The notes below the pieces were generated by a model, which made no database searches, was not told the DNA's origin, and saw only the letters and a program-made list of their open reading frames with translations. This document shows positions 422 to 18,163 of a stretch of DNA of 22,351 nt, in pieces. The DNA is from a virus: positions 1-22,351 of the IMG/VR virus record IMGVR_UViG_3300025769_000932; one strand, 5' to 3'. Positions within the stretch are counted from its first letter, which is position 1. The number at the start of each line of letters is the position of its first letter. Position numbers and translations under genes: made by a program.

Positions 422-892
422 ATGGATACACTTGACATACTAGCAAAACATCACGATGAATGGCTTTCAATAGCCTTATCGTTCGGTGCAACAGAGGACT
501 TGGTACAGGATATGTACATCAGAGCGTACAAGTACAAAGGTTTTCTCAACCAAGACAAAACTCCAAATAGAGCCTTCATTTGGATAACTATGCGTAACTT
601 GTTTTACGATTCAATCAAAAAAAATCAACATCATATAGAACTAGATACTACGTATCATTCTATCCCAGAAACTCCAGACGAGTATCTTAAAGAAGCCTTA
701 GAGCTAGTGGATAAAACAAAAAAAGAATGGCATCACTTCGACTCCATGATGTTCGACCTTTACCTTCACTCTGGAATGTCAATGCGAGATATCGAGAAGG
801 AAACAGGGATATCTTTATCTACTATTTTTCTTACAATTAAACGATGTAAGGATAGACTTAAACAACAAAACGACAAAATAAAAGTTATATAG
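422..892 (+). CDS. Phage sigma-70-family (ECF-like) RNA polymerase factor
   Basis: A 156-residue protein with the two-domain plan of small group-4 sigma factors. Residues 21-68 resemble region 2: an acidic segment with EDLVQDMYIRAYKY, then an aromatic- and Trp-containing helix ending near MRNLFYDSIKK, the part that binds the -10 element and core polymerase. After a linker, residues 105-148 resemble region 4, with a helix-turn-helix around SMRDIEKETGISLSTIFLTI. It is expected to redirect host RNA polymerase to phage promoters. The adjacent terminase genes fit a late-gene switch. A host-type promoter precedes it, and its own last codons overlap a copy of the repeated AGTTATATA motif. Region 2 is divergent, so a sigma-like regulator without true sigma activity is possible. 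Confidence 0.75.
   Translation: MDTLDILAKHHDEWLSIALSFGATEDLVQDMYIRAYKYKGFLNQDKTPNRAFIWITMRNLFYDSIKKNQHHIELDTTYHSIPETPDEYLKEALELVDKTKKEWHHFDSMMFDLYLHSGMSMRDIEKETGISLSTIFLTIKRCKDRLKQQNDKIKVI
861..891 (+). promoter_or_regulatory. Composite motif copy 1 (candidate late promoter)
   Basis: AACAACAAAAC at 861-871 is followed 11 bases later by AGTTATATA at 883-891, four bases or fewer from the ATG at 895. It overlaps the end of the sigma-like gene, whose TAG stop lies at its edge. It would serve the cysteine-motif protein and terminase genes. See the finding on the six copies. Confidence 0.5.
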
Positions 893-894
893 TT

Positions 895-1269
895 ATGGAG
901 AAGTTAAAACAACCTAGAAAGAAACAATCCAAAGGATTAGGAGATACTATCGAGAAGATAACCGAAGCTACTGGAATCAAGGCAGCGGTTAAGTTCATTG
1001 CAGGAGAAGATTGTGGTTGCGATGAGCGTAAGGATAAGTTAAACGAATTGTTTAGATATAAGACACCTAAGTGTTTGACAGAGAGCGAGTATGAGCAATT
1101 AGATATCGTTCTAAATAGACAAAGAAAAACGGAGATATCACCAGTAGAGCAATATGCAATGATTAAAGTATACAATCGTATCTTTGACGCTAAGGAAACA
1201 TTTACTACTTGTGGATCTTGTTTACGAGATTTAGAACAAAAACTTAAGAAGGTATATGATTTATATTAG
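895..1269 (+). CDS. Conserved cysteine-motif (possible zinc-binding) protein
   Basis: A 124-residue protein with a basic N-terminus (residues 1-13), a CxC motif at Cys40/Cys42 within EDCGCDERKDKLNELF, a lone Cys60, and a CxxC at Cys106/Cys109. The pairs Cys40/Cys42 and Cys106/Cys109 could together hold one zinc ion. I recall similar proteins with a GEDCGC signature next to terminase genes in Bacteroidetes phages, without a known function. It follows the sigma-like gene by two bases and precedes the small terminase. A DNA-binding or packaging-accessory role is plausible from the basic tail and position but is inference. No membrane segment is seen. Confidence 0.75.
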   Translation: MEKLKQPRKKQSKGLGDTIEKITEATGIKAAVKFIAGEDCGCDERKDKLNELFRYKTPKCLTESEYEQLDIVLNRQRKTEISPVEQYAMIKVYNRIFDAKETFTTCGSCLRDLEQKLKKVYDLY

Positions 1270-1348
1270 TGGGGTTATTTACTACGAAATATTGACTGAT
1301 AACTTTCATTATGTTATTTATCTAAATTAATTAATTAAAACAAAAATA

Positions 1349-1639
1349 ATGGATAACAGAAGGAATAACGGAGGACATTCTACTAAGGGAAAAGCTGGTA
1401 GAAAACCTAAAGACGAGGAGAATAGAATACGGGATTTAATGTCGCCTTATTCGTTAGATGCTATACAATGCTTGGCTAATATAGTTATATCGGAGAAGGC
1501 TAGAGATAGTGATAAAATTAGTGCAGCTAAGTTGATAATCGAGTACACTTATGGTAAGCCTAAAGAGACTATCGATAATAACATTACGGTATCCGAAACT
1601 AATATAAAAGAGTTATTAAGCTTTGGTGGATCTAAATGA
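1349..1639 (+). CDS. terS: Probable terminase small subunit
   Basis: A 96-residue protein directly upstream of, and overlapping by about 16 bases, the large terminase gene. The N-terminus is basic and Gly-rich (NGGHSTKGKAGRKPKDEE), followed from about residue 28 by a helical domain (SPYSLDAIQCLANIVISEKA) and a segment KISAAKLIIEYTYGKPKE, a pattern typical of small terminase-like proteins, where the C-terminal part contacts the large subunit. It would recognise phage DNA for packaging. The call rests on size, position and the AAKxxxEYxYGKP signature. It is short for the family, so the DNA-binding part may be reduced. Confidence 0.7.
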   Translation: MDNRRNNGGHSTKGKAGRKPKDEENRIRDLMSPYSLDAIQCLANIVISEKARDSDKISAAKLIIEYTYGKPKETIDNNITVSETNIKELLSFGGSK

Positions 1640-2831
1640 TAAGTATAGAGCATTTGGAAGTGATAGTAGGTACTTTATTGTTACTGGTGGCCGTGGTTCT
1701 GGTAAATCATTCTCGATCAACATACTTCTACTATTTCTTACTTACGAGAGAGGACATATTATTCTTTTCACTCGCTATACTCTTACTTCTGCTCATGTAT
1801 CTATCATACCAGAATTTCTAGAGAAGATAGATATACTTGATAAACATAGTGACTTTCACGTTACTAAAGACGAGATAGTAAACCTAAAAACAGGGAGTAA
1901 GATATTATTTAAGGGTATCAAAACAAGTTCTGGAACTCAGACGGCTAATCTTAAATCACTAGCTGGAGTTACAACATGGGTATTAGATGAAGCTGAGGAG
2001 TTAACCGATGAAGATACTTTCGATAAGATAGATTATTCTATCCGTTCTAAGGACAAAGATAATAGGGTTGTGTTGATACTTAACCCTGCTACTAAAGAAC
2101 ACTTTATCTATCAAAGGTTCTTTGAATCGAAAGGAGTAGAGGCAGGAAGTAATATAGTCAAGGGAGATACTACGTATATTCATACTACCTACTTAGATAA
2201 TATAGATAATCTTTCTGAATCGTTTCTAACACAAATAGAGACAATGAAAATACACCGACCAGAGAAGTATAAACATACTATTCTAGGAGGGTGGCTCGAT
2301 AAAGCCGAGGGGGTTATATACACCAATTGGTCGATAGGTAAATTTAATGAAGATATACCTAGCGTATTTGGACAAGATTATGGATTTAGTAACGATCCAA
2401 GCACTTTAGTCGAAACTGCAATAGATAAATCTAAGAAGATTATTTACGCAAGGTTACACGTATATCAACAAGGGTTAACTACTTCTCAACTTGCTAATCT
2501 TAATATCCGATTTGCTGGCAAAAAGTTAATAGTAGCAGATAATGCTGAGCCTAGATTGATAGCTGAACTTTCTAACTTAGGATGTAATGTTGCACCTTGT
2601 GTTAAGTACAAAATAAACGAAGGGATAGCTACTATACTAGATTACGATTTGGTAATAGACGAGGAGTCAATAGACTTGATTAAGGAATTGAACAACTATT
2701 GTTGGCTGGAGCGTAAGAGTGAAACTCCAATCGATAAATACAATCATGCTTTGGATGCTCTTAGATATGCGGTTACTTATCAACTTGAGAATGCACATAA
2801 AGGAAACTATAAAATAAGCTTCATTCGTTAA
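1623..2831 (+). CDS. terL: Terminase large subunit (packaging ATPase and nuclease)
   Basis: A 402-residue PBSX/Terminase_3-type protein that pumps DNA into the prohead and cuts concatemers. Walker A is TGGRGSGKS at 21-29; Walker B is WVLDEAEE with Asp122/Glu123; a motif III-like ILNPAT is near 152-157. The RNase H-like nuclease domain starts near residue 248, with acidic residues Asp252 (GQDYGFSND), Asp306 (IVADNAEP) and Asp378 (HALDALRYA). All expected residues are present, so it looks functional. No ATG is available near the N-terminus: the start is TTG at 1623 or GTG at 1626, both inside the small-subunit gene, implying coupled translation. Confidence 0.93.
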   Translation: MVDLNDKYRAFGSDSRYFIVTGGRGSGKSFSINILLLFLTYERGHIILFTRYTLTSAHVSIIPEFLEKIDILDKHSDFHVTKDEIVNLKTGSKILFKGIKTSSGTQTANLKSLAGVTTWVLDEAEELTDEDTFDKIDYSIRSKDKDNRVVLILNPATKEHFIYQRFFESKGVEAGSNIVKGDTTYIHTTYLDNIDNLSESFLTQIETMKIHRPEKYKHTILGGWLDKAEGVIYTNWSIGKFNEDIPSVFGQDYGFSNDPSTLVETAIDKSKKIIYARLHVYQQGLTTSQLANLNIRFAGKKLIVADNAEPRLIAELSNLGCNVAPCVKYKINEGIATILDYDLVIDEESIDLIKELNNYCWLERKSETPIDKYNHALDALRYAVTYQLENAHKGNYKISFIR

Positions 2832-2861
2832 CAACAAAACAATGCTAAAATAAGTTATATA
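2830..2861 (+). promoter_or_regulatory. Composite motif copy 2 (candidate late promoter)
   Basis: AACAACAAAAC at 2830-2840, starting at the last base of the large terminase stop codon, is followed 12 bases later by AGTTATATA at 2853-2861, four bases before the ATG at 2866. This copy lies in true intergenic DNA and matches copy 1 over about 35 bases with a one-base spacing change. Confidence 0.5.
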
Positions 2862-2865
2862 AGTA

Positions 2866-3543
2866 ATGAAGATAGAGATTAATATTCCAGAAAGTTTAAA
2901 GGAGATAAAGCTCAAAGACTATCAGAAGTTTGTTAAGACTTGTAAAGATAGTAACGATGAGATGTTTGTAAAACAGAAGATGATAGAAATCTTTTGTGGT
3001 GTGCCTTTGCTTTCTGTTTTAAAGATGAAGTTCTCAGATGTTGAGGATATAACAAATCATCTAAACAACCTATTCACTAAACAACCTAACTTAATACGTA
3101 AATTCGATATAGTTGGCTTAGAGTTTGGATTTATTCCTAACCTAGAGAAGATAACGTTTGCTGAGTATATTGACTTAGATACTTATATTGCTGACTTCGA
3201 TAATATGCACAAAGCAATGGCAGTATTATACAGACCAATAGTAGACAAACGAAAAGATACTTACTCTATTGAGGAGTACACTGGATCGGATGCGTACTCC
3301 GAGATAATGGAGCATGTTAGTATGGAGGTTGTGATAGGAGCAAGGGTTTTTTTTTGGAATTTAAGCAACGAGTTATTGACGGCTATCCCAACTTATTTGG
3401 AGAAACAGGTGAGCAAAATGAATACTCGGAAAGCTACCAATTTGGGAGCAAATGGGGATGGTATCAATCAATCTATTCACTTGCTAAAGGAGACGTTACA
3501 AGACTTGATGAAGTTACAGAGGTTGGATTATTTAAAGCTTTAA
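2866..3543 (+). CDS. Tail-assembly-chaperone-like protein, frame-0 product
   Basis: The 225-residue unshifted product. Residues 1-163 look like a soluble mixed fold (MKIEINIPESLKEIKLKDYQ at the start, acidic middle) and end at a run of nine T residues at 3347-3355 coding for Val-Phe-Phe-Trp. After the run, frame 0 stays open for another 62 codons and ends 60 bases before the next gene. The -1 frame instead stays open to an 8-base overlap with the next gene and looks more protein-like. A short and a shifted product from one gene, upstream of the tape measure, is the hallmark of tail assembly chaperones (lambda gpG/gpGT). No family is recognised from the sequence itself, so the role is inferred. 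A sequencing error in the T-run is the main alternative. Confidence 0.65.
   Translation: MKIEINIPESLKEIKLKDYQKFVKTCKDSNDEMFVKQKMIEIFCGVPLLSVLKMKFSDVEDITNHLNNLFTKQPNLIRKFDIVGLEFGFIPNLEKITFAEYIDLDTYIADFDNMHKAMAVLYRPIVDKRKDTYSIEEYTGSDAYSEIMEHVSMEVVIGARVFFWNLSNELLTAIPTYLEKQVSKMNTRKATNLGANGDGINQSIHLLKETLQDLMKLQRLDYLKL
3348..3354 (+). other. Slippery heptamer T TTT TTT for -1 frameshifting
   Basis: In the frame of the gene starting at 2866 the run reads GTT TTT TTT TGG, placing a T TTT TTT heptamer at 3348-3354. Both tRNAs could re-pair perfectly after a -1 slip, and decoding would resume at TTG 3354. The fused product would be 163 + 85 = 248 residues. I saw no obvious strong downstream pseudoknot by eye. 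Confidence 0.55.
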
Positions 3544-3611
3544 CGATGCTTAGTTTTGAGAAAGAAAAACACGATATAGAAATGATGCAAATACAAAGAC
3601 GAAATGGCTAA
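3354..3611 (+). CDS. -1 frame extension of the chaperone-like gene
   Basis: Eighty-five codons, entered from TTG 3354 after the slip rather than by independent initiation. It contains an aromatic-rich core, FGSKWGWYQSIYSLAKGD at about residues 31-48, then TRLDEVTEVGLFKALTMLSFEKEKHDIEMM. This resembles a compact domain I associate with Bacteroidetes phage virion proteins (WGWYxxIYxLAxGDxxxLDEVTE). It ends in TAA overlapping the ATG of the next gene by eight bases, the tight packing seen elsewhere here, whereas the frame-0 stop leaves a gap. Both points suggest this frame is translated. It cannot be an ordinary gene: there is no ATG near its 5' end. Confidence 0.6.
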   Translation: MEFKQRVIDGYPNLFGETGEQNEYSESYQFGSKWGWYQSIYSLAKGDVTRLDEVTEVGLFKALTMLSFEKEKHDIEMMQIQRRNG

Positions 3612-4062
3612 CTATTACGATATAACTAAACAAATACACGATTTCTTTATAACTAATCCGATGTGTAATTACGTTACTAAAGGTAGCCTTGACGAGCTTA
3701 TGAATGCAAAGCATGACATGTACCCATTGGCACACGTTCAGATTAACAACGCCACTATACAAGGTCATTCTATTACTTATAACGTATCTGTATCTGTAAT
3801 GGACTTGCTAGATTATTCTAAGGAGCAACCAGCAGATATTTATGTAGGGAATAGTAATGTAGATGACGTTCTAAACGCAAGCCTATTGTTACTAAACAAC
3901 TTCCACGAGCACTGCATTAGAGGTAATATGTGGGATGATGACTATCGTATCGAGGATAGCTCTGGAAGCATAGAGTTCTTTGAGGAACGGTTCATAGATA
4001 ATGTGGCTGGAGCTACTATGACTTTTGATTTGGTAACAGGAAATACAATGACTAAATGCTAG
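3604..4062 (+). CDS. Neck or tail-completion-like structural protein
   Basis: A 152-residue soluble protein, probably alpha/beta. Its N-terminal half (ITKQIHDFFITNPMCNYVTKGSLD) precedes a beta-rich core with PLAHVQINNATIQGHSITYNVSVSVMD and the acidic segment KEQPADIYVGNSNVDDVLNASLLLL. I recall similar proteins in Bacteroidetes phages beside HK97 gp10-like genes, where tail-terminator and head-completion proteins are usually encoded. The role is inferred from position and fold pattern, not from a recognised motif. It overlaps the -1 extension upstream by eight bases and the next gene by seven, so it belongs to the same transcript. Confidence 0.5.
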   Translation: MANYYDITKQIHDFFITNPMCNYVTKGSLDELMNAKHDMYPLAHVQINNATIQGHSITYNVSVSVMDLLDYSKEQPADIYVGNSNVDDVLNASLLLLNNFHEHCIRGNMWDDDYRIEDSSGSIEFFEERFIDNVAGATMTFDLVTGNTMTKC

Positions 4063-4604
4063 ATAGAAGCTATGTACAGAAGGAGCTTGATAATTTCAAG
4101 AAATACGTTATACAACAAAGTAGGAGCAATCTAACTAAGGGAGGAAAGAACGTAAATAAGAAGCTATACAACTCTATTAATGGGGAGGCTATCTCTAGCA
4201 AGAACAGTTTACGTCTTGCATTTGAGATGGAGGACTATGGTACCTTTCAAGATTTAGGGGTAAAGGGTAAGGACCCGAGTAAAGTATCTAAAGGTTCAAA
4301 GATAAGAGGGCAGCAAGCGCCGAATAGCCCTTATAGTTTTAAGGATAAAGCACCTCCAGCAAGTGCGTTACTTCCATGGGTTAAGGCAAGAGGTATAAAT
4401 CCTAGATTCCGAGATGCAAAAGGTAAATTTCAGAAAGGAAGTCATTTAGGGTTTGCTAGGTTAATATCTTTAAATATATTCTACAGAGGAATAAAACCTA
4501 GTTTATTTTTTACTAAGCCTTTTGAGAAAGCATTTGAAAGATTACCAGATGATATAATCGAGGCTTACGGATTAGATGTTGAATCTTTAATTAAATTGAA
4601 ATGA
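4056..4604 (+). CDS. HK97 gp10-like head-tail connector / neck protein
   Basis: A 182-residue basic protein. Features typical of the gp10-like family are an N-terminal helix with basic residues (LDNFKKYVIQQSRSNL), a KLYNSI segment near residue 37, a beta motif FEMEDYGTFQDLGVKG (about 56-71), a Pro/Ala-rich segment PPASALLPWVKARGI (about 100-114), and a C-terminal KPFEKAFERLP like the family's P-F-x-x-A-F end. These proteins act in the neck, joining head to tail or ending tail tube growth. Its stop overlaps the following start as ATGA. It is somewhat longer than usual because of an inserted basic loop (about 115-150). Confidence 0.6.
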   Translation: MLDRSYVQKELDNFKKYVIQQSRSNLTKGGKNVNKKLYNSINGEAISSKNSLRLAFEMEDYGTFQDLGVKGKDPSKVSKGSKIRGQQAPNSPYSFKDKAPPASALLPWVKARGINPRFRDAKGKFQKGSHLGFARLISLNIFYRGIKPSLFFTKPFEKAFERLPDDIIEAYGLDVESLIKLK

Positions 4605-5635
4605 GTAACATATTTGCAAGGTCACCTTATGTGATAGAGATAGACGAGGCTAGTCAGTTAGCTACTAAGTTAGAGTTGTTTATTTGGAATGGTACAGGAT
4701 CTATTCCTTCATCTCCACAATACACATTTAGTAAGTCAATCCCAGCTAGCAACAACACTGCTACGAACTACAATGTGTCTCCATACATTAGAGAGTACTT
4801 TAGTTTCTTAACTGCTCAGAATCCTACTAGCACTACTGCTACCACAACATCGCATTGGTGCAACGTAACAGTAAAGAGATACAAGGACATAGGTGCTGGC
4901 TATGTACTCGTAGACACAACGAACTATTACGCTTTTGACGGCTTTGGGTTCTTTGGGGATGGTTACAATTACGATAACGGAAATTACTTAAGAAGGCAAA
5001 AGGACTACGTTTATTCTAGTGGTACTTATGCTGGTTATGTTGTAGCTTATTTGGGGGTTAATTGGCACGTAGAATGGAATGACGGCACGACAAACCACGT
5101 TGATAGCTCGATAGTGACTGCTGGCTGGTATTCAATACCTTTAATCTATTTAGGAGGTACGACAGGAGATTGGACTTTAACGATTATAGATAATGGAGAT
5201 GCAACGCAAGCTACGTATACAACTACCGAAAAAACCGAATGTAAATACACTCCTATTGCTTGTGATTTTATCAATAAATATGGATCGTGGCAACGTGAGT
5301 TTTTCTTTAAAGCCTCGAATGATAGCATAGAGATAAGTTCGAACGATTATAATGTAATGCCTTCATCCTTCCCTAATTATTCAACAAGCGAAGGTCAAAA
5401 AAGAAGTTTCAATACAAACGGGAAAGAATCAATCAAGGTCAACACGGATTGGGTAGATGAGGATTGGAGCGATAACCTAAAGGAGTTAATGTTAAGTGAG
5501 CGAATATTGATCAACGGAAAGCCAGCAAGTTTGAGGACTAAATCTACCGAACTATTCAAACATATAAACACTAAACAAATAAACTACACTTTGGAATTTG
5601 AATACAATTATAACACTATTAACAACGTAATGTAA
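4601..5635 (+). CDS. Tail structural protein, 344 residues
   Basis: A beta-rich protein with many Thr, Ser, Asn, Tyr and Gly residues and no membrane segment. Its N-terminus (FARSPYVIEIDEASQLATKLELFIWNG) and the segment NVSPYIREYF resemble a family I associate with Bacteroidetes phages, located just before a larger tail-tip protein. The C-terminus includes KSTELFKHINTKQINYTLEFEY. Cysteines are few (one in HWCNV; two near CKYTPIACDF). It is probably part of the tail tip or baseplate-like hub. It overlaps both neighbours (ATGA upstream, TAATG downstream), so it is made together with the 779-residue protein, a likely binding partner. No enzymatic motif is seen. Confidence 0.5.
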   Translation: MSNIFARSPYVIEIDEASQLATKLELFIWNGTGSIPSSPQYTFSKSIPASNNTATNYNVSPYIREYFSFLTAQNPTSTTATTTSHWCNVTVKRYKDIGAGYVLVDTTNYYAFDGFGFFGDGYNYDNGNYLRRQKDYVYSSGTYAGYVVAYLGVNWHVEWNDGTTNHVDSSIVTAGWYSIPLIYLGGTTGDWTLTIIDNGDATQATYTTTEKTECKYTPIACDFINKYGSWQREFFFKASNDSIEISSNDYNVMPSSFPNYSTSEGQKRSFNTNGKESIKVNTDWVDEDWSDNLKELMLSERILINGKPASLRTKSTELFKHINTKQINYTLEFEYNYNTINNVM

Positions 5636-7974
5636 TGGAGAGAAAGGTAGACATTTGGATTGAAGGAAACACAATAGGTGACTATTCAAAACTAGAGTTA
5701 TTTAAGGATGAAAAGATAGTAATTAATTCTTCTATACAAAATATAAATGACATATCAAAGGTATACACAGACTTTTCTCAATCATTTACTATACCAGCAT
5801 CTCCAATTAACAACGCTGCTCTTCATCACTTCTATCAATCGGACGTAGACATTGAACTAGACGTTGATAACAATCCTTTATGGAATCCGAACTATAGACG
5901 TAAAGCATTTATAGAAGTTGATTTAACACCTTTCAAAACAGGGTTTATATCAATCGAAAAATCTAATATAGTAAACGGAAACGTAGAGAGTTATTCCATT
6001 ACTTTTTACGGCGACTTAATAAGCCTTAAGGATAAGTTTGGAGATGACATGTTAAGAGATTTAGATTTCTCTAGCTATGAACACGACTATACAGGTGCAG
6101 AGGTACAAGCAAGGGTGGAGACCGATACGGATGAGGATGTTTGTTATCCTTTAATTTGTAATAAATCTGCAGCGTGGACATACGACGATGCAAGTAGTAC
6201 GGATATAACAACAACAACAGGGAGGATAGAATGGACTGAGTTATTTCCAGCGTTGAAGGTTGCGAGAATTATGGATGCTATCGAGGCAAAATATGATTTG
6301 ACTTTCAATAGTGCGTTTTTTCAAAGTGCTAATCTAAGATGGGAGAAGTTATACATGTTATTCAAGAATCAAGAAACAAACGTAACTACTTCACAGACCA
6401 GAACGGTAAGATTGTTGCAGACCAACATGAACACTAATACCTATAACATTGTTGACTTAACCAATCATAGGATAATATTTGTACCAGAGCTGAATTGTAC
6501 GAAAATTAAAGCTAACATAACTTTTCAAGTAGTTTCAGGTTCTGGCAACTATTACTTAGATGTATACATTAATGGTGCGTTCAATCGTACACTAGAGGGT
6601 GATGCTACTAAGTTATTTACTGCTTACTCTAATTCCAATCCTCCGTTAAGTAATGAGGAGATAAGCTTTAAGGTTAGAGCAGATGCAGCGATAACATACA
6701 CTTGTTCTATATCTATGATAAGGGGTTATAGTGCGAGTGAGAAACAACAAACGGTTGTGGTTGGTTACGTAGATACTTTGGCTCTGAAAAGTGGGTTAAG
6801 CTACAAAGCACCAGATATTAAGGTTACAGATTTTTTCACAGGGATTTTGAAAATGTTCAACTTAACCTGTTACGCTGTTTCAGTTGATAGCTTTATCGTA
6901 GAGCCGTTGGACGATTGGTATTCGCAAGGTAGGGTTGTTGATGTATCTAGTTACGTTGACACGGATAGCATAGAGATAGGCAAACATTCTTTGTACAAGA
7001 ACTTAGTGTTTAAATATTCGGAGTGCAAATCGACTATTAACAATGGTTATTTAGACTTAAACAATAGAGAGTTCGGTAATATAGTTCAGTCAAACACGTA
7101 TGAGGGAGGGGAGTATAAAGTAGAGCTACCATTCGAGAATTTATTGCCTAGTAGATTCACAGGGGAGAATTTGCAAGTAAGTTACTTAGTAGATAAGGAT
7201 TTAAAGACTTACGTACCAAAACCAGTGTTATTATATCGAGGTGATCAAACAAATCACAATGGATTAGAGTTCTGGAATGGTACAACGCAAGACAATATAA
7301 CGACTTATGTGCCTTTTGGAAATGAGGTAGGATATAATAATAACTTGTACTCACTAAATTTTAGTGTTGAGTATTCAAGCTTATACGCAGATACACAATT
7401 AAACAATAGTCTGTATAACGTGTACTATGATAGCTATTTAAAAAACTTATTCAATCCTAAAAATAGACTAACAAGCCTAAAAACACATTTACCAATTTCT
7501 TTATTAACACAAATAAAACTTAATGATAGGCTAATCATAAGAGACAAAAGGTATATAATTAACGACATAAAAACAGACCTAACCACAGGAGACGTTGACC
7601 TTTCTCTAATTAACGATTTTAGAAGTGTAATTAATGTTAACCAAGATTTAGGTATTGGTTCGGGAGGTGGCACGGTGGTTATTGGTATTCCTGTACCAAC
7701 TGGTACGACGGTGACTGTATCTAGTGGTACACCAGGTGTGGGAATTACTCCTACCGTTTTTACAACACCCGGCACTACAACGGTAACAGTGCCTACGAAT
7801 CCAGACATTGCTGGTTATCTACTTGCTGAGAATGGAGACTTCTTAATAAGTGAGGAGTTGTACAGCATAATAACCGAGGAAACGAATGAGCAATATATAG
7901 ATATAAACGTACTAACAACGTGGCCAGATGGCACAACTAATGACAATACATTATATATAATTCAAGAACCATGA
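5635..7974 (+). CDS. Large tail-tip / tail-associated protein, 779 residues
   Basis: The largest protein in the window. The N-terminal 130 residues are beta-rich (ERKVDIWIEGNTIGDYSKLE; IPASPINNAALHHFY; FKTGFISIEKSNIVNG), followed by several beta domains with polar and aromatic residues. Residues of about 680-725 form a low-complexity linker of Gly, Pro, Thr and Val (IPVPTGTTVTVSSGTPGVG). A short C-terminal segment begins at AGYLLAENGDFLISEELYS. The linker followed by a small terminal piece suggests a flexible, exposed tip. Position between neck genes and the tape measure, and coupling to the 344-residue protein, suggest a tail-tip or host-recognition hub. No protease or lysozyme motif is visible. 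Assignment is by context. Confidence 0.55.
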   Translation: MERKVDIWIEGNTIGDYSKLELFKDEKIVINSSIQNINDISKVYTDFSQSFTIPASPINNAALHHFYQSDVDIELDVDNNPLWNPNYRRKAFIEVDLTPFKTGFISIEKSNIVNGNVESYSITFYGDLISLKDKFGDDMLRDLDFSSYEHDYTGAEVQARVETDTDEDVCYPLICNKSAAWTYDDASSTDITTTTGRIEWTELFPALKVARIMDAIEAKYDLTFNSAFFQSANLRWEKLYMLFKNQETNVTTSQTRTVRLLQTNMNTNTYNIVDLTNHRIIFVPELNCTKIKANITFQVVSGSGNYYLDVYINGAFNRTLEGDATKLFTAYSNSNPPLSNEEISFKVRADAAITYTCSISMIRGYSASEKQQTVVVGYVDTLALKSGLSYKAPDIKVTDFFTGILKMFNLTCYAVSVDSFIVEPLDDWYSQGRVVDVSSYVDTDSIEIGKHSLYKNLVFKYSECKSTINNGYLDLNNREFGNIVQSNTYEGGEYKVELPFENLLPSRFTGENLQVSYLVDKDLKTYVPKPVLLYRGDQTNHNGLEFWNGTTQDNITTYVPFGNEVGYNNNLYSLNFSVEYSSLYADTQLNNSLYNVYYDSYLKNLFNPKNRLTSLKTHLPISLLTQIKLNDRLIIRDKRYIINDIKTDLTTGDVDLSLINDFRSVINVNQDLGIGSGGGTVVIGIPVPTGTTVTVSSGTPGVGITPTVFTTPGTTTVTVPTNPDIAGYLLAENGDFLISEELYSIITEETNEQYIDINVLTTWPDGTTNDNTLYIIQEP

Positions 7975-8123
7975 TAAAGCATATACTAGCATTGCTTAAG
8001 TTAAGTGATTTTTACGGAGTATCCGAGAACGTAGATATAGCTAAAGGAAAATACGAGTATAATAATTCGTTTAGACAAACAACAAAACAAGCGAAAAGGA
8101 AGTTATATAGTTATGGCAATTAA
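7971..8123 (+). CDS. Small 50-residue protein before the tape measure
   Basis: A 50-codon ORF starts inside the stop of the preceding gene (ATGA) and overlaps the tape measure start by 11 bases. It begins MIKHILALLKLSDFYGVSEN and ends in a basic segment, FRQTTKQAKRKLYSYGN. Coupling at both ends and a sensible composition (hydrophobic N-terminal helix, basic C-terminus) support a real gene that accounts for the otherwise empty 138 bases before the tape measure. Its last codons coincide with a copy of the repeated AGTTATATA motif. A role in tail assembly is possible from position; none is recognised. Confidence 0.6.
   Translation: MIKHILALLKLSDFYGVSENVDIAKGKYEYNNSFRQTTKQAKRKLYSYGN
8078..8109 (+). 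promoter_or_regulatory. Composite motif copy 3 (candidate late promoter)
   Basis: AACAACAAAAC at 8078-8088, 12 bases, then AGTTATATA at 8101-8109, three bases before the ATG at 8113. It lies inside the 3' end of the 50-residue ORF yet keeps both blocks and the spacing. Confidence 0.5.
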
Positions 8124-10634: not shown

Positions 10635-11928
10635 GATACCATACTACGTACGAACGTCTACGGTAACTACTCTATCGGATACAGACTATATAATAGCTGA
10701 TAATCCTAATAGTGATGTAGCTAAAAAAATTACTTACTCAGACTTTGTGTCTTTGATAGGATCGGATGTAACCATAGATTTAGGTAATATAGTATTCGTA
10801 TCTTCTAAATCCGAACTACCAACAGCGGTAGAAGGGGTTATAACACTAGCTGCGAATATTACCTATTATTTCACTACCACCGTAGACTTGACAGGAGATA
10901 GATTAGTAGGAGGTTCTAATACGGTTATATTGGGTAGTTCTTCAGAGAATAGTAGAATAACGTCTACTGGTTTAGGGGTTGGTGTACCTTTGTTTTATAC
11001 TGAATGGACTACTCCAATAAGACACGTAACATTTCAAGACGTAGATACTGCGATACATATTGTTGGGGATGTAAATCCTCCAGTAGCATTGGATTGGACT
11101 GGTGTGAATTTTCTAAACGTAGATAACGTAGGATTAATAGATACTTGTGATAACTTCATATATTCTAAAGGTGCTATTCTAAATAGTCAAAATTTACAAT
11201 TTAGTGGCACGATAGGAACGGTTGGTATAGACAATTCTATATTTGTTGGTGGCGGTGGTGTGGGTAATATACTAGACATCCTTTCAACGTGTACAATTAC
11301 ACGTAGATTTAGATTGATTTACTCGTCTATGGTTGTATTTGGATCAACGGTTGGAATAAATGTAGATGTTAGTGCTACTATACCTACGGAGGGTTATATA
11401 TTAGATACCATTAATTTTAGTGCTGGAGGTACTTATTTAAGTGGTGTTAGCTATACGGATAACAAAACAAGGTTTGTAAATAGTAAAGGAATAGAGAATA
11501 CAGCAGAGATAGGTAACTACTATATGACTAATAACGCAACAGCGACCACTATATCAGCCACAGACACTCCAGTAAAGGTGTTAGGTACGACATCACCAAA
11601 CACTATAAACCAAAAGTTTACACACTCGGATAATAGACTTACTTATGTAGGTGCTTTAATTCGTGATTTTCAAGTAACCGCTACAACTTCTTTATCTAGT
11701 GGAAATAATAACGTGATTGGCGTATATGTCGCTAAAAATGGAGTTGTAATAACCTCTAGTGAAATGTATTCAACTACTTCTAGTGGTGGGAAAGCTGAAA
11801 GTATAACGTGTCAAACAATACTCGAGTTAAATGAGAATGACTACATAGAAATATGGGTGGAAAATAGCACTGCGGTTACGGATGTTACGGTGGAATACTT
11901 GAATGTTATTTGCAAGTCTTTGAACTAA
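10627..11928 (+). CDS. Fibre- or spike-like beta-rich virion protein
   Basis: A 433-residue protein in three parts. Residues 1-45 (TSTVTTLSDTDYIIADNP then KKITYSDFVSLIG) resemble the short anchoring domain often found at the start of phage fibre proteins, and match the start of the 151-residue protein at 18170. Residues of about 60-290 contain Gly-, Val- and Thr-rich short strands consistent with a right-handed beta-helix. Residues of about 295-433 look like a beta-sandwich of the jelly-roll or C1q/TNF-like type, ending DYIEIWVENSTAVTDVTVEYL. The place between prohead protease and scaffold favours a head fibre or head decoration over a tail fibre. No catalytic residues of a depolymerase are identifiable by eye. 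Confidence 0.6.
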   Translation: MPEIPYYVRTSTVTTLSDTDYIIADNPNSDVAKKITYSDFVSLIGSDVTIDLGNIVFVSSKSELPTAVEGVITLAANITYYFTTTVDLTGDRLVGGSNTVILGSSSENSRITSTGLGVGVPLFYTEWTTPIRHVTFQDVDTAIHIVGDVNPPVALDWTGVNFLNVDNVGLIDTCDNFIYSKGAILNSQNLQFSGTIGTVGIDNSIFVGGGGVGNILDILSTCTITRRFRLIYSSMVVFGSTVGINVDVSATIPTEGYILDTINFSAGGTYLSGVSYTDNKTRFVNSKGIENTAEIGNYYMTNNATATTISATDTPVKVLGTTSPNTINQKFTHSDNRLTYVGALIRDFQVTATTSLSSGNNNVIGVYVAKNGVVITSSEMYSTTSSGGKAESITCQTILELNENDYIEIWVENSTAVTDVTVEYLNVICKSLN

Positions 11929-11936: not shown

Positions 11937-11972
11937 AAAAACAAAACAAACGCAAAATAAATAAGTTATATA
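11937..11972 (+). promoter_or_regulatory. Composite motif copy 4 (candidate late promoter)
   Basis: An A/C-rich block (AAAACAAAAC and AAAACAAAC within 11937-11951) is followed by AGTTATATA at 11964-11972. Unlike most copies it lies 19 bases before the start codon (11992), which favours a promoter over a ribosome-binding role. It heads the scaffold, decoration and capsid block. Confidence 0.5.
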
Positions 11973-11991
11973 ATTAAACTTAAATTTTATT

Positions 11992-12573: not shown

Positions 12574-12587
12574 ATAAAAAATAAAAA

Positions 12588-13016: not shown

Positions 13017-13045
13017 TCTATTAACTAATAAATTTTAAATAACAA

Positions 13046-13996
13046 ATGGCAACTACAACTAACATTACTACAACTTATGCTGGTGAATCAGCAAATAAGT
13101 GGGTAGCAGCAGCTTTATTATCTGCACCAACTTTGGCAAACAATCTTATCGAGATTATGCCAAACGTGAAATACAAGGCGGTTATGCACAAACTAGCTAC
13201 AACTGGTTTATTAAAAGACCAATCTTGTGATTTCGATCCTACTTCTACTGTAACTATCACTGAGCGTATCTTAACTCCAAAAGAATTAAGTGTTAACGTA
13301 CAATTGTGTAAGAAAAATTTCATCGATACATGGCAAGCTATGGAGATGGGATATTCTGCACACGATGTACTTCCAAAATCTTTCGCTGATTACCTTTTAG
13401 GGTACATGGCTGACAAGGTAGCTGCTGCTAACGAGGCTTCTATTTGGGCTGGTGATGCTACTAACTCTGGAGAGTTTGATGGATTTGCTACATTGATGGC
13501 ATTAGATGCTAGCTTACCAGCTGCTCAAGAGGTAACAGGAACTACTTTAACTGCTGCCAACATCATTACAGAGTTAGGAAAAGTAGTAGACGCTACTCCA
13601 GATGAGGTTTATTCTCAACCAAACTTTAGAATATACATTTCTCAAAATGCTTATAGACTTTACCTAAGAGCTTTAGGAGGTTTTGGTTCTTCTGGTTTAG
13701 GTGCTAACGGATACGACAATAAAGGTAACAACCAAAAATTAGACTCTTTGTTATTCGATGGTGTTCCATTAGTAGTGGTAAACGGATTAGGTGCTAACCA
13801 AATGATTGCTACATACAAAGAGAATTTAACTTTTGGTACTTCTTTAATCGGAGATTTTTCAGAAGTTAAGTTGCTAGATATGAGTGAATTGGATGGTTCA
13901 GACAACGTAAGAATCATTATGAAAATGAACGCAGGTGTGCAATACGCTTCTATCGAAGATTGTGTTACTTACGGAATCGTTAACGGAGCTAACTAA
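13046..13996 (+). CDS. Major capsid protein
   Basis: A 316-residue protein that should form the icosahedral shell. It begins with Thr/Ala-rich polar residues (ATTTNITTTYAGESANKWVA), contains the segment FADYLLGYMADKVAAANEASIWAGD (about 112-136) typical of the long helix and adjacent loop of HK97-fold coat proteins, a QPNFRIYISQNAYRLYLRAL strand-helix (about 190-210), and a C-terminal strand region ending VRIIMKMNAGVQYASIEDCVTYG. Position after scaffold and decoration genes, the adjacent protease and the strong terminator immediately downstream all fit. The absence of an obvious N-terminal delta domain agrees with a separate scaffold. Confidence 0.8.
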   Translation: MATTTNITTTYAGESANKWVAAALLSAPTLANNLIEIMPNVKYKAVMHKLATTGLLKDQSCDFDPTSTVTITERILTPKELSVNVQLCKKNFIDTWQAMEMGYSAHDVLPKSFADYLLGYMADKVAAANEASIWAGDATNSGEFDGFATLMALDASLPAAQEVTGTTLTAANIITELGKVVDATPDEVYSQPNFRIYISQNAYRLYLRALGGFGSSGLGANGYDNKGNNQKLDSLLFDGVPLVVVNGLGANQMIATYKENLTFGTSLIGDFSEVKLLDMSELDGSDNVRIIMKMNAGVQYASIEDCVTYGIVNGAN

Positions 13997-14016
13997 TAAC
14001 TAGCTAATTAATATTA

Positions 14017-14045
14017 GGGGAGGGGATTGACTCCTCCCTTTTTTT
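14017..14045 (+). terminator. Rho-independent terminator after the major capsid gene
   Basis: GGGAGGGG (14018-14025) pairs with CTCCTCCC (14031-14038) with one G-U pair and a five-base loop, followed by seven T residues. It would end or reduce transcription after the capsid gene, giving capsid excess over downstream genes if leaky. Confidence 0.88.
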
Positions 14046-14069
14046 ATAAACTTTAAAAATTAAATAATT

Positions 14070-14618
14070 ATGTCATGTGATATAGCTAACGGTAGAGCTT
14101 TAGTTTGCAAAGACCAAATCGGAGGGCTCAAGGCAATCTACTTTATCAATAATCAAATTGCAGCAACGGATATTACTTACGATGTAACGAATACCGACCT
14201 AATTACTGCTATTACAAACGTAGATAGTTTGTACAAATATGAGTTGAAAGCTACAGTAAACACGTATGTAGAAACTATTACATCTTCTCGTGATAATGGT
14301 ACTGCTTTCTTCCAACAAGTTCTATCTATCCAACTTCCTAAATTAACAACTGCTGACCACAAGATAGTTAAGTTGTTGGCTTATGGTAACCCACACATCG
14401 TAATACAAAACAACAACGACCAATTCTTCATTGCTGGATTGTTACGAGGCATGGATGTTACTGGTGGTTCTATCGAAACAGGAGGTGGTTTAGGAGATTT
14501 CTCTGGATATAAACTTACATTTACTGGTGAGGAAGGAAAACCAGCTTCTTTATTGAATGCTTCTGCTGAGGCTGCAATGGTTACATTGTTTACTTCTGCA
14601 ACATTGGTTACTTCTTAG
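14070..14618 (+). CDS. Probable major tail tube protein
   Basis: A 182-residue beta-rich protein beginning MSCDIANGRALVCKDQIGGL. It contains YKYELKATVNTYVETITSSRDNGTAFFQQVLSIQLPKL (about 55-92), then HKIVKLLAYGNPHIVIQNNNDQFFIAGLLRGMDVTGG and GYKLTFTGEEGKPA. I recall this family in Bacteroidetes phages, often named only as a structural protein. The NxxTYxExI and LTFTGEE strands, size and single-copy place beside the capsid gene fit a tail tube subunit. It lies between two terminators, so it can be expressed at its own level, as expected for an abundant protein, although no clear promoter precedes it; read-through from the capsid block is likely. Confidence 0.6.
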   Translation: MSCDIANGRALVCKDQIGGLKAIYFINNQIAATDITYDVTNTDLITAITNVDSLYKYELKATVNTYVETITSSRDNGTAFFQQVLSIQLPKLTTADHKIVKLLAYGNPHIVIQNNNDQFFIAGLLRGMDVTGGSIETGGGLGDFSGYKLTFTGEEGKPASLLNASAEAAMVTLFTSATLVTS

Positions 14619-14640
14619 TAAGTTACCGAGCAGTAAAAAA

Positions 14641-14676
14641 TTAAGGGTAGTTATTAATTTAGCTACCCTTTTTTAT
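14641..14676. terminator. Bidirectional rho-independent terminator
   Basis: AAGGGTAG (14643-14650) pairs with CTACCCTT (14663-14670). On the plus strand a T-run follows the stem and ends the tail tube transcript. On the minus strand the A-run at about 14636-14641 becomes a T-run, ending transcripts of the leftward cassette genes. It thus insulates two converging units. Confidence 0.85.
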
Positions 14677-14680
14677 TTCA

Positions 14681-14724
14681 TAACACCACATAAACAACAT
14701 AAAACGTAGTTTATTTGTGTGTTA
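14681..14724 (-). repeat. TAACAC...GTGTTA imperfect hairpin after the minus-strand cassette
   Basis: TAACACCACATAAAC (14681-14695) is complementary, with one insertion and one mismatch, to GTTTATTTGTGTGTTA (14709-14724), around a loop of about 13 bases containing ACGT. It lies nine bases past the stop of the minus-strand zinc-motif gene. The TAAC/GTTA ends recall the elements near the right end of the window. Confidence 0.6.
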
Positions 14725-14733
14725 GCAACAATA

Positions 14734-14907
14734 CTAATCAAGGTCGTTTAACTTTTGTTCAGTATAGCACATTTCACAAATTCCTTTATAATTTATTTCA
14801 GTATTGCATTCCGTACAGTTGCTAACATCAGATAAAATTAATTTTAATTTCTCTAATTCTTCGGGTGTTAGTTTTTTTAAATGGTCACATACTAATTTAA
14901 AACTCAT
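14734..14907 (-). CDS. Small zinc-ribbon-like protein, 57 residues
   Basis: A leftward ORF of 57 residues: a helical N-terminus (FKLVCDHLKKLTPEELEKLK) and a C-terminal four-cysteine motif, Cys31-x2-Cys34 (NCTECN) and Cys44-x2-Cys47 (GICEMCY), nine residues apart, which would form a compact zinc ribbon. Such knuckles occur in small phage and bacterial regulators and nucleic-acid-binding proteins. It is downstream of the 157-residue gene on the same strand, 57 bases away. The segment before the first cysteine (EELEKLKLILSDVSNC) resembles one in that neighbour (EELTELKKLRVGDVSNC). Orientation against the virion genes marks it as an accessory insertion. Regular cysteine spacing makes it a convincing gene despite its size. 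Confidence 0.65.
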   Translation of the reverse strand: MSFKLVCDHLKKLTPEELEKLKLILSDVSNCTECNTEINYKGICEMCYTEQKLNDLD

Positions 14908-14964
14908 ATCTTATTTTTTTAATATTAAAACTAATCTTATCTGTGGCACGTTATATACTATAGC

Positions 14965-15438
14965 TCAGAACGTAACCTTAGTCCCATCTAAATTAGTTGC
15001 AGGTTCTAAAAAGTCATTCATTTCAAATGGCACAAAATGAACTCCCATTTTGCCACCTTCTATATTTGTATTACGGTAAACAGTACCCAACTTTAGATTT
15101 TTATAAGCCAAGTAAGATTTATCAAATTCTCCTTCCTTTTGAAATCTATGCAAGTCTTTTGCATCCTCTAAAGTTGGTTCACGGTTTAGTATTTGTCTCA
15201 ACACTTCTTTTATTACATTTTCCTCCGCATCCACAAAGTTCTTAGTAATTTGTGCCATCACATCCGATAAAGCACAGTTACTAACATCACCTACACGCAA
15301 TTTTTTTAACTCAGTTAGTTCTTCGCTTATCAGTTCTATCAAAACTCCGAATCGTTGTTTATAATTATCTGGGCAAGTTTCCCAATATGTTATGTCTTCT
15401 AAAACATCTTTCAAGTATTCTAAATCTTCTTTCTTCAT
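14965..15438 (-). CDS. Minus-strand accessory protein, 157 residues
   Basis: I do not recognise this protein. It is acidic and mostly helical in its first 115 residues (KKEDLEYLKDVLEDITYWE; LIELISEELTELKKL; NVIKEVLRQILNREPTLEDA), then has a short beta-rich end (LKLGTVYRNTNIEGGKMGVHFVPFEMNDF). No membrane segment, enzyme signature or DNA-binding motif is evident. It is the first gene of a leftward pair inserted between the tail tube and portal blocks, with a plausible host-type promoter of its own at 15470-15503. A gene read against the virion genes from a host promoter is typical of a moron, meaning an accessory gene that may be expressed outside the late programme; lysogenic expression or phage exclusion is possible but unproven. 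Confidence 0.7.
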   Translation of the reverse strand: MKKEDLEYLKDVLEDITYWETCPDNYKQRFGVLIELISEELTELKKLRVGDVSNCALSDVMAQITKNFVDAEENVIKEVLRQILNREPTLEDAKDLHRFQKEGEFDKSYLAYKNLKLGTVYRNTNIEGGKMGVHFVPFEMNDFLEPATNLDGTKVTF

Positions 15439-15469
15439 CTAGTCTTTGTTAATCGTTAAAAAATCTTCG

Positions 15470-15503
15470 TAAATCTAACAATTTTAAATATATAAACAAC
15501 AAA
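15470..15503 (-). promoter_or_regulatory. Host-type promoter for the minus-strand cassette
   Basis: Reading leftward, TTTGTTG (complement of 15497-15503) is followed after 19 bases by TAGATTTA (complement of 15470-15477), one base off the Bacteroidetes -7 consensus TAnnTTTG. Transcription would start roughly 25-30 bases before the ATG at 15438. It overlaps the rightward composite motif copy 5, so the two could interfere. Confidence 0.5.
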
Positions 15504-15525
15504 TGCAAAAAAAAAAAGTTATAAT
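15495..15525 (+). promoter_or_regulatory. Composite motif copy 5 (candidate late promoter)
   Basis: AACAACAAATG at 15495-15505, 11 bases of A-rich DNA, then AGTTATAAT at 15517-15525, a two-base departure from the other copies. The ATG is at 15529. A terminator and two opposing genes separate this block from upstream rightward transcription, so the portal genes need a promoter here, and this is the only candidate I see. Confidence 0.5.
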
Positions 15526-15528
15526 AGT

Positions 15529-15900
15529 ATGACTATCTTAACAACAGATACAGGAGTGCAGAATATAACGGTTAAGCCTAGAGCAATAGGTAATAACTTA
15601 GCTAATAAGGTTTTTTTAATAGACGAAGAAACCAACGTGACTACTTCCTATAATGTTAGTGGCTACACGGAGTACGACTTATATGATAACATAAACGCTT
15701 CTTTCCCTGATTTAATAGAAGGAAGAAGGTATAAAATGCTTATATGTAGAGATGTGATTACAGATGTTAGATACTACGGGATAGCAATGTGCACGGATCA
15801 AGTTAGTACTTCTTTAGGCTTCAATGATTATAGAGATTATACGATTAATGAAGGACAATACACAGAGAACACAACAACCAACGATTTTATATTATTATGA
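15529..15900 (+). CDS. Small virion-associated protein, 123 residues
   Basis: I do not recognise a named family. The protein is soluble and beta-rich: strand-like segments NITVKPRAIGNN, KVFLIDEETNVTTSYNVSGY and RRYKMLICRDVITDVRYYGIAMCT are followed by an acidic, Tyr/Asn-rich end (INEGQYTENTTTND). The segment SGYTEYDLYDNINASFPDLIEGRRYKM is well ordered in appearance. Its stop overlaps the portal start as ATGA, so the two are translated together, suggesting a portal-associated, head-completion or minor virion role. This is positional inference. Confidence 0.55.
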   Translation: MTILTTDTGVQNITVKPRAIGNNLANKVFLIDEETNVTTSYNVSGYTEYDLYDNINASFPDLIEGRRYKMLICRDVITDVRYYGIAMCTDQVSTSLGFNDYRDYTINEGQYTENTTTNDFILL

Positions 15901-17615
15901 TAGTAGAATTAAGCAGATACACAGCACCAACAATTACCGAAGATAAACGTAATGACTGGGTGAATTATGGGGATGAAAACAACTACTACCAGTTTTTGAT
16001 TGATAGATACATTCATTCAGCAACGCACAACGCCGTAATCAATAATATATGTAGACTTATTCTAGGTAAAGGAATTAGCGCCTTAGACGCAAGCAAGAAG
16101 CCTAATGAGTACGCTCAAATGTTGACATTATTTGCAGAGGAAGACCTAGAGCGAGTAATTAAAGACTTGTACTTACTCGGAAGTGCAAGTATACAAGTAC
16201 ACTACGACAAGCCACACAAAACAATTATTAAAGCTTATCATATCGAAGAAAGACTTCTAAGACCAGAGAAATGTAATAAGGATGGGGAGATAGAGGCTTA
16301 CTACTATTCCGACAATTGGGATGACGTAAGAAAATTTGAGCCAAAGAGAATACCTTCTTTTGGATATTCAAACAAAGAGGTAGAGATACTACGTATAATG
16401 CCTTATTCCGTAGGAATGAAGTATTTTGCTTATCCAGACTATGTTGGTGCGTTGGATTACACAGTGCTAGAAGAGAAGCAATCCGAATACTTAATTAATG
16501 AGGTTAGCAACTCGTTCTCTCCAACTACTATAATAAATTTCAATAACGGCACACCTACGGAAGAGCAAATACAACAAATAGAAAGAAACGTACAAAACCA
16601 ATTAACAGGCTCAACAGGTAAAAAAGTAATCGTATCGTTCAATAAGAACCAAGACGAAAAAACAACAATAGACAGCGTGCCTTTGAACGATGCACCAGAG
16701 CACTACCAATATTTAAGTGAGGAATGTAGAAGCAAAATATTAGTAGGTCACAACGTAACGTCGCCTCTATTATTTGGTATAAGCTCAACTAATGGGTTCA
16801 GCTCAAATGCCGATGAGCTTAAAAATAGTGCCATACTATTTGACAACATGGTTATCCGCCCGAAACAACAATTAATAGTAAATGCGTTAAATAAAATACT
16901 TTCGTTTAACGGAATTTCTTTGAAATTATTCTTTAAGACTTTACAACCTTTAGAATTTACGGATTTAGAGAATGCACAAAGTGAGGAGCAAGTACAGGAG
17001 GAAACTGGAGTAGAGATGAGTTCTCATATTAATTTGAGTGATTATGGGCACGAGCTAGACCCTTCATGGATTCTAATAGATGACTTTGAGGCTACTGATT
17101 TGGATGATGAAACAGAAGAGCTAAACAATGTTAGATTGAGCGTATTAGAGTTGGTCAAAACAGGTATCTCTAAGGCTTTGTCTAGAAGTGAACAAGACAA
17201 GGTTGTTAAGGATATTAAATTCATGACTAGATATAGATACACCGGTAAGCTAAGAGAAAATACAAGACCGTTCTGTAAAGCAATGCTAGAGGCGAATAAG
17301 GTATATAGAAAAGAGGACATAATAGCAATGAGTTCAGACCCTTTGGTCAATCCTGGATGGGGACCAGAAGGTGCTGACACATACGATTTATTCCTATATA
17401 AAGGAGGAGGAGCTTGTAGACACGTGTGGAGAAGGGAAGTGTACGCAAGTGCTAATGCCGATGTGATAAGCCCATTCAATAAAGACGCTAGAAAAATAGC
17501 AACTGGAATAGCAGAAAAAAGAGGGTATAAAGTTAGGAATCCATACCAAGTTAACGTACAGCCTAACAACCTACCTAACAACGGATTTTTACCAACAAAT
17601 AAAAGGTTTCAATAA
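15897..17615 (+). CDS. Portal protein with C-terminal extension
   Basis: A 572-residue protein that forms the DNA entry ring at one capsid vertex and docks the terminase. Residues 1-400 have the features of portals: an N-terminal helical and beta wing (HNAVINNICRLILGKGIS), the stem and clip region with GSASIQVHYDKPH and KAYHIEERLLRPEK, and a long helical region near NVTSPLLFGISSTNGFSSNADELKNSAILFDNMVIRPKQQLI, where many portals carry PxxxxGI...xxxNAEE-like sequence. Residues of about 405-535 form an extra domain, with FMTRYRYTGKL, TRPFCKAML, GPEGADTYDLFLYKGGGACRHVWRREVY. Its Cys/Trp/Arg pattern recalls Mu gpF-like minor head domains, suggesting a portal-MuF-type fusion. It is ATGA-coupled upstream and TAATG-coupled downstream. 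Confidence 0.8.
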   Translation: MIVELSRYTAPTITEDKRNDWVNYGDENNYYQFLIDRYIHSATHNAVINNICRLILGKGISALDASKKPNEYAQMLTLFAEEDLERVIKDLYLLGSASIQVHYDKPHKTIIKAYHIEERLLRPEKCNKDGEIEAYYYSDNWDDVRKFEPKRIPSFGYSNKEVEILRIMPYSVGMKYFAYPDYVGALDYTVLEEKQSEYLINEVSNSFSPTTIINFNNGTPTEEQIQQIERNVQNQLTGSTGKKVIVSFNKNQDEKTTIDSVPLNDAPEHYQYLSEECRSKILVGHNVTSPLLFGISSTNGFSSNADELKNSAILFDNMVIRPKQQLIVNALNKILSFNGISLKLFFKTLQPLEFTDLENAQSEEQVQEETGVEMSSHINLSDYGHELDPSWILIDDFEATDLDDETEELNNVRLSVLELVKTGISKALSRSEQDKVVKDIKFMTRYRYTGKLRENTRPFCKAMLEANKVYRKEDIIAMSSDPLVNPGWGPEGADTYDLFLYKGGGACRHVWRREVYASANADVISPFNKDARKIATGIAEKRGYKVRNPYQVNVQPNNLPNNGFLPTNKRFQ

Positions 17616-18121
17616 TGGCAGAAGCGCTAATGATAAGCAAGGCAGACATAACTAAGTTCACTGCCTTAGACGGTAACATCGACCCTGATAAATTTGTACA
17701 ATGGGTTAAGGTAGCTCAAGATATACATATACAAACATTTTTAGGTACAGATTTATTTAACAAAATAAAAGCTGATATAGTAGCTACTACGTTAACTGGA
17801 GCTTATCAAACTTTGGTAGAGACATACGTAAAGCCTACGCTCATTCATTTCGCTATGTGCGAGTTCCTTCCATTTATGGCTTATAGCTTAACGAATAAAG
17901 GAGTATTTAAAAAGACTGCCGAGAACAGTGAATCGGTACAAAAGAACGAAGTAGATTATTTGGTAGAGAAAGAAAAGGTAATAGCTAACCATTATGCTCA
18001 AAGAATGATAGATTATATTAACTACAACATTTCGAGCTTTCCAGAGTATACGACAAATACAAATAACGACATGAATCCACTTAACAATAATGACTTTTTA
18101 TGGAAAATCGCAAAAAAATAA
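17615..18121 (+). CDS. Head-tail connector (adaptor-like) protein
   Basis: A 168-residue, mainly helical protein: LMISKADITKFTALDGNID at the start, DKFVQWVKVAQDIHIQTFLGTDLFNKI (about 24-50), then a helical bundle with LVETYVKPTLIHFAMCEFLPFMAYSLTNKGVFKK and a final helix with DYLVEKEKVIANHYAQRMIDYI. The pattern, in particular the IHIQTFLGTDLFNKI segment and the later hydrophobic helix with NKGV, resembles the adaptor proteins next to portals in Bacteroidetes phages (I associate it with DUF6712). It starts in the portal's stop codon. It would attach below the portal as the first ring of the connector. The last 20 residues are Asn-rich and probably disordered. Confidence 0.65.
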   Translation: MAEALMISKADITKFTALDGNIDPDKFVQWVKVAQDIHIQTFLGTDLFNKIKADIVATTLTGAYQTLVETYVKPTLIHFAMCEFLPFMAYSLTNKGVFKKTAENSESVQKNEVDYLVEKEKVIANHYAQRMIDYINYNISSFPEYTTNTNNDMNPLNNNDFLWKIAKK

Positions 18122-18131
18122 ATACACCTAA

Positions 18132-18163
18132 GCAAAACAATATCATCAAATTAAAGTTATATA
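18132..18163 (+). promoter_or_regulatory. Composite motif copy 6 (candidate late promoter)
   Basis: GCAAAACAA at 18132-18140 precedes AGTTATATA at 18155-18163, with a longer gap of about 14-16 bases than the other copies. The ATG is six bases further on at 18170. It heads the fibre, LamG and lysis block. Confidence 0.45.

Follow-up and report, generated by a model that had tools for sequence, protein, structure and literature searches.

Six candidate late promoters, placed at or near start codons, in an uncultured phage that encodes an ECF-type sigma factor

The window analysed here, an IMG/VR virus record taken at its full length of 22,351 b, contains six copies of a two-block element upstream of genes, and these are best read as late promoters of an ECF sigma factor encoded by the phage itself, with transcription starting at or near the start codon. 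A probability of roughly 0.75 is assigned to this reading; recognition by the sigma factor, the start sites and the late timing are all predictions from sequence. In the proposed mechanism an A/C block (consensus A[AC]AACAAA, core AAC) would act as the -35 element and [A/C]GTTATA or GTTAATA, 13–14 nt further on, as the -10 element (AAC-N16/17-NGTT overall), and the sites would be read by host core RNA polymerase together with the phage ECF sigma factor (422-892). Transcription would begin about 12 nt after the first -10 base. For four window copies out of six, and for the majority of relatives, this position would coincide with the first base of the ATG or the one preceding it; promoter 4 would yield a 16-nt leader and promoter 6 a leader of ~3 nt. 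Host-type TAnnTTTG promoters with ordinary leaders would serve the early genes and probably the sigma gene too, and the sigma factor would constitute the early-to-late switch.

The closest isolates are the Nonlabens phages P12024L and P12024S, whose TerL is 58–59% identical to that of the window and which were the only phage records found with a related portal. A TerL scan of viral contigs revealed numerous related contigs, at least as many as the matches listed. The window is ordered as ECF sigma, a small gene, probable terS, terL, several genes without assignment and tape measure, followed by protease-like, fibre-like, capsid block, portal, lectin-like, holin and lysozyme genes, with terS and some others assigned by position only.

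Exact copies of the -10-like block AGTTATATA are found on the + strand at 883, 2853, 8101, 11964 and 18155, with zero exact copies on the - strand of the window, and a sixth copy on the + strand, at 15517, has the form AGTTATAAT. All six are preceded by an A/C block and followed by a gene, as had been described in a preliminary description of this DNA. Candidate promoter 1 (862..891) combines a -35-like ACAACAAA at 862-869 with AGTTATATA at 883-891 and has its predicted start at the A of ATG 895, and promoter 2 (2831..2861; ACAACAAA 2831-2838, AGTTATATA 2853-2861) has its predicted start at 2865 and serves ATG 2866 of the gene after terL. Promoter 3 (8079..8109; ACAACAAA 8079-8086, AGTTATATA 8101-8109) is predicted to start at the A of ATG 8113 of the tape measure gene, which in relatives has a related element ~24 nt before its ATG. 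Promoter 4 (11943..11972; AAAACAAA 11943-11950, AGTTATATA 11964-11972) has a predicted start at 11976, with the 16-nt leader running to ATG 11992 of a capsid-block gene. Promoter 5 (15496..15525; ACAACAAA 15496-15503, AGTTATAAT 15517-15525) is predicted to start at the A of ATG 15529, in the gene that precedes portal, and the orthologous site is present in ~30 relatives. Finally, promoter 6 (18134..18163; AAAACAAT 18134-18141, AGTTATATA 18155-18163) has its predicted start at ~18167, just before ATG 18170.

From copy 1 to copy 6 the distances between the -10-like block and the ATG are 3, 4, 3, 19, 3 and 6 nt, in agreement with the earlier figures, whereas the 11–12 bases previously given between the blocks have to be corrected to 13 or 14 nt once the 8-base A/C block is placed in register. 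The statement that the copies precede the first gene of a block holds in that all lie upstream of genes, but gene 895 starts 2 nt past the sigma gene, within a run of co-directed genes. Three of the six copies overlap ORFs, namely that at 862 (the 3' end of the sigma gene), that at 8079 (a 50-aa ORF, 7971-8123) and that at 18134 (a small ORF, 18100-18246). The A/C block contains AAC in all six, as at the -35 of ECF-type promoters, and the -10 block begins AGTT rather than the canonical CGTT. The TAnnTTTG -7 element is absent from the sense strand at every one of the six sites, which are predicted to be promoters distinct from the Bacteroidota primary sigma class.

For AGTTATATA itself ~0.45 exact matches are expected per strand, giving a Poisson P(>=5) of ~1e-4, and with one mismatch allowed the 9-mer is mildly enriched, at 30 matches against 19.9 +/- 5.0 (2 of 100 shuffles reach 30). 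As the 9-mer alone is only mildly enriched, the strength of the motif resides in its two-block form. The pattern A[AC]AACAA[AT]-N12..15-[ACG]GTTA[AT][AT], derived from window and Nonlabens phage sequences together, matches the six sites and one further position in the window, 16865 inside the portal gene, against a mean of 0.08 and a maximum of 2 in window shuffles. Each Nonlabens phage also has six matches (shuffle means 0.08–0.24, the window included) and phage RAP44 has zero; the two-block form stands far above shuffled DNA. It is highly improbable that the element is a product of chance or of coding, or an operator, packaging or recombination repeat. The sequence is short and AT-rich, chance matches do occur (16865, and one in RAP44, a sigma-less control, 12 nt from an ATG) and some copies lie within conserved coding sequence, but the element is found only in gene-sense orientation, at a constant spacing to the ATG and far more often than in shuffles, and its two conserved blocks flank a spacer of variable sequence.

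Several other candidates were set aside. A scan for sigma70 promoters gave no more hits than shuffled DNA (58 against 70), and AACAACAAAA repeats in TerL relatives mostly reflect coding conservation. Exact IMG/VR matches to AACAACAAA-N8..18-AGTTATATA, in 79 stretches, mostly look coding-like or due to chance; only L145 among them has the full arrangement and, being 99.3% identical, it is the same phage. The 150-kb contig G031 (L087/L161) was considered as a parallel, but its two copies belong to an upstream block that is duplicated, and the 12-nt rule does not hold for its remaining genes, despite the presence of a sigma gene.

The layout is not confined to the window but is found again in two isolates and widely in a large family of uncultured phages. 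Seven late genes of P12024L, namely gp01, gp05, gp08, gp37, gp42, gp45 and gp46, start with an AAAACA-type block, a 12–14-nt spacer and CGTTA, the C of which lies 11 or 12 nt ahead of the ATG; in P12024L/S these seven late-gene copies of the window layout carry CGTTAATA. The search of related phages proposed earlier returned late-gene copies in both isolates and in uncultured relatives. Of 1773 upstream regions taken from related contigs, 64 have the motif beginning at a distance of exactly 12 nt from the ATG, although these are not independent, since filtering for near-identical sequence went no further than the 40-nt level and many contigs are close kin; the next class contains 17, and in the reversed control no distance was ever represented more than 4 times. 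The 64 are spread over several deep lineages: the window, Nonlabens, L005/L036/L058, L026/L032/L043, L060, L079/L081 and G019/G028. In 58 sites, columns -31..-29 are A (0.90), A (0.86) and C (0.84). The -10 block is CGTT in Nonlabens, L060 and L079/L081, AGTT in the window and AATT in G019/G028, and it is nearly uniform within a genome but differs between lineages, even at the orthologous pre-portal site. A shared trans-acting reader would predict just this combination of uniformity per genome and variation among lineages.

Some late blocks have no clear copy of the motif, for instance that at 14070, behind a terminator. The hairpin in that region, within 14016-14070, precedes the gene after the capsid gene, is terminator-like and may be a partial terminator; the relative G006 (L244, before gene 3202) likewise has a terminator-like hairpin and no clear late promoter. 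In one clade (L009, L012, L026 and others) ACAACAAA-N13-AGTTATA is conserved inside the sigma coding sequence (codons ENNKTYEIELYY), which may represent coding conservation or an internal promoter.

The proximity of the element to the ATG had been counted against a promoter, but the argument is reversed if transcription starts at the A of the ATG, which would put the blocks at -33..-26 and -12..-4, the ordinary -35 and -10 places, with the conserved columns of the second block at -12..-6. Their geometry, AAC-N16/17-NGTT, matches that of known ECF promoters. The base at -1 is a pyrimidine in 63 of the 64 motif genes, as opposed to 48% elsewhere (Fisher P 8e-19, for sequences that are not independent). 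A pyrimidine at -1 is the usual start-site preference. In copies that lie farther from the ATG (window 11964-11976, L191, L195 and L205) the two blocks still stand together, and t|A is still found where the start is predicted.

Placement points in the same direction: the element often follows directly on a terminator or an opposing gene. Upstream of the pre-portal gene a hairpin (threshold, below -5 kcal/mol) with a T-run is present in 29 of 35 contexts, mostly ending 35–44 nt before the ATG, and the motif fills this gap, in which there is room for it only. In the window the capsid block ends at an intrinsic terminator-like hairpin (14643..14670, + strand), so that the portal block needs a start of its own; two small opposing genes (14734..15438, - strand) also lie between the hairpin and promoter 5, and the need for new initiation at this copy, claimed previously, is upheld.

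These same features bear on the possibility that the element works in the mRNA as a translation-initiation signal, either a phage-specific ribosome-binding site or an A-rich enhancer. A fixed 12-nt distance from the ATG would suit such a role, and A-rich sequence ahead of the start codon, including A at -3 and -6, is known to aid initiation in Flavobacterium (PMC6847099). Against this, internal genes of the same blocks lack the element yet must be translated, in copies set 16–19 nt farther from the ATG neither block is lost and the start-site signature persists, the element occupies the short terminator-to-ATG gap just where a new start is needed, and the first two letters of the -10 block change together within a genome. 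A role in translation instead of transcription is therefore considered quite improbable.

With the sites taken as promoters, the late mRNAs would be leaderless or nearly so, beginning, except at promoter 4, at the start codon or within a few bases of it, and this is supported indirectly by the 12-nt spacing, the -1 pyrimidine and the 35–44 nt that separate terminator from ATG. In these phage genomes host-type TATATTTG elements mostly lie 32–47 nt before the ATG, which makes the short spacing special to the late-motif class. In the window TATATTTG occurs on the + strand at 21164..21171, 31 nt before ATG 21195, where it is probably an early-gene promoter, and at 345..352, 77 nt before the sigma ATG. 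In P12024L (L001), at 2997, 5389 and 24749 on the - strand, TATATTTG overlaps the A/C block of three late promoters and points at a small opposing gene, an arrangement of back-to-back early and late promoters.

The preliminary description had also noted a sigma-like factor, and the gene at 422..892 (+ strand, 156 aa) does encode one of ECF type. The protein matches PHROG 1740 (RNA polymerase sigma factor, E 1.7e-10) and, above the cut-off, Sigma70_r2, and TIGR02937 (sigma70-ECF) covers residues 24-149 and is matched in 37 of 37 homologues, the window protein scoring 41.5 against a cut-off of 42.9. In a structural model, which matches ECF sigma factors, residues 1-72 superpose on sigma2 of Bartonella RpoE (Z 9.2, 2.2 A) and residues 87-154 on region 4 of E. 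coli sigmaE (Z 8.5, 3.2 A), the orientation of the domains being uncertain at a pTM of 0.43. Only the sigma2 and sigma4 domains are present, as in ECF (group 4) factors, and with region 2 ending at ~residue 72 and region 4 starting at ~87 the linker is shorter than 50 residues. Positive autoregulation, a usual ECF hallmark with named exceptions rather than a criterion of the protein family, is not indicated, as no late motif precedes 422 and TATATTTG is found there instead. All nine of the near-complete relatives checked carry the gene, and so do both isolates, in P12024L as gp35. Pfam Sigma70_r2 detected it in 0 of 11 records of the portal clade, where divergent sigma genes were recovered with a family profile, and a scan of bacterial genomes found no close relative. 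The sequence of region 2.4 tends to vary with the -10 block: AG occurs with [LM]RN, CG with LRS (L060, L079) or IYN (Nonlabens) and AA with LKN (G019, G028), a pairing that comprises few independent changes on long branches and that the single-site labels L038 and L066 do not fit.

The promoters might instead be read by a host ECF or primary sigma factor, or by host polymerase helped by a phage activator that binds the A/C block. Bacteroidota own many ECF sigma factors, which lends this some weight. However, TAnnTTTG is missing from the six sites, the phage sigma factor is conserved in every near-complete relative checked, and the sigma-less relatives RAP44, Harreka_1 and BS-TP2 have no repeated motif, so that another reader is considered unlikely. 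The phage sigma factor remains the favoured reader, and the earlier proposal of a phage-specific promoter class separate from TAnnTTTG is strengthened by the late-gene copies in isolates and relatives, the fixed ATG distance and the ECF sigma gene.

The sigma gene itself has a leader hairpin in the window (within 345-421, -18.2 kcal/mol, z -3.05). The upstream regions concerned in relatives are those of L012, L028, L035, L050, L021, L059, L043, L049 and L032, in six of which TATATTTG likewise stands 77 nt upstream. Several relatives carry a terminator-like hairpin and T-run, placed either after TATATTTG and ahead of the sigma start codon or finishing just short of that codon. Such leader and terminator hairpins could gate synthesis of the sigma factor via read-through.

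Among known systems, Salmonella phage 7-11 is similar in having a phage sigma factor and bipartite promoters in several copies before late genes. Its late promoters, GTAAtg-16-aCTA, are read by SaPh711_gp47 and start 6–9 bp from the element (PMC8948821), in a source that does not describe placement relative to start codons. Unlike in phage 7-11, which has an enterobacterial host, the window has a -35 core of AAC and a -10 of GTTA, an unrelated sequence. With phiEco32 gp36 the likeness is that a phage sigma factor serves multiple middle and late promoters (PMC8948821), but phiEco32 uses a single element, tAATGTAtA, and a sigma factor without region 4, whereas the window has two elements and a sigma factor with region 4. 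ECF promoters have AAC at -35 and CGT at -10 (PMC8103513), and EcfG-type promoters, GGAAC-N16-CGTT with TGTT, CATT and GGTT variants (PMC7083833), share the AAC core, the N16 spacing and an NGTT/NATT -10 core in which the first two letters vary. EcfG, though, controls a chromosomal stress regulon in alphaproteobacteria, with no phage and no placement at the ATG. The Bacteroidota primary-sigma promoters (TTTG/TAnnTTTG; PMC6847099) are present in the same phage genomes, probably at early genes, but differ in sequence and are mostly leadered. TA-led leaderless bacterial genes (PMC3160421) resemble the window in having a -10-like signal ~10–12 bp before the start codon, theirs being a sigma70-type box and that of the window an ECF-type two-block element. 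For phage sigma factors and late promoters in Bacteroidetes the open-access papers searched yielded only a jumbo-phage overview, and they yielded no transcriptome papers on Flavobacterium phage sigma factors.

Of the transcripts predicted for Flavobacterium johnsoniae, 87% carry leaders of >10 nt (PMC6847099), and leaderless genes were detected in only one of 37 Bacteroidetes/Chlorobi genomes (PMC3160421). It is conceivable, though rather doubtful, that an entire Bacteroidota phage family has come to express its late genes from leaderless mRNAs, transcribed with an ECF sigma factor of its own, thereby escaping leader-dependent host initiation. If true, phage proteins would be favoured late in infection, in a phylum that has few leaderless genes. 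More generally, leaderless or near-leaderless late mRNAs are predicted in a phylum of unusual translation initiation, and a readable promoter code, with a likely transcription programme, becomes available for a large and mostly uncultured phage family. The early/late switch becomes testable in two cultured phages, the lineages offer natural sigma/promoter pairs in which letters change in parallel, and the motif, by marking start codons, aids gene calling.

Two related contigs showed further features, both recognised by eye. In L145, at the place matching window 1567-1750, the terS-terL gap holds an ORF resembling a GIY-YIG homing endonuclease (MIGIYKITNPKGKVYIGQS...), beside which the start of terL has diverged. 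In L077, near 11165-11270, an intein-like start (KGDVRIDSIKVGDYVLTSEGYKKV) follows the TerL match.
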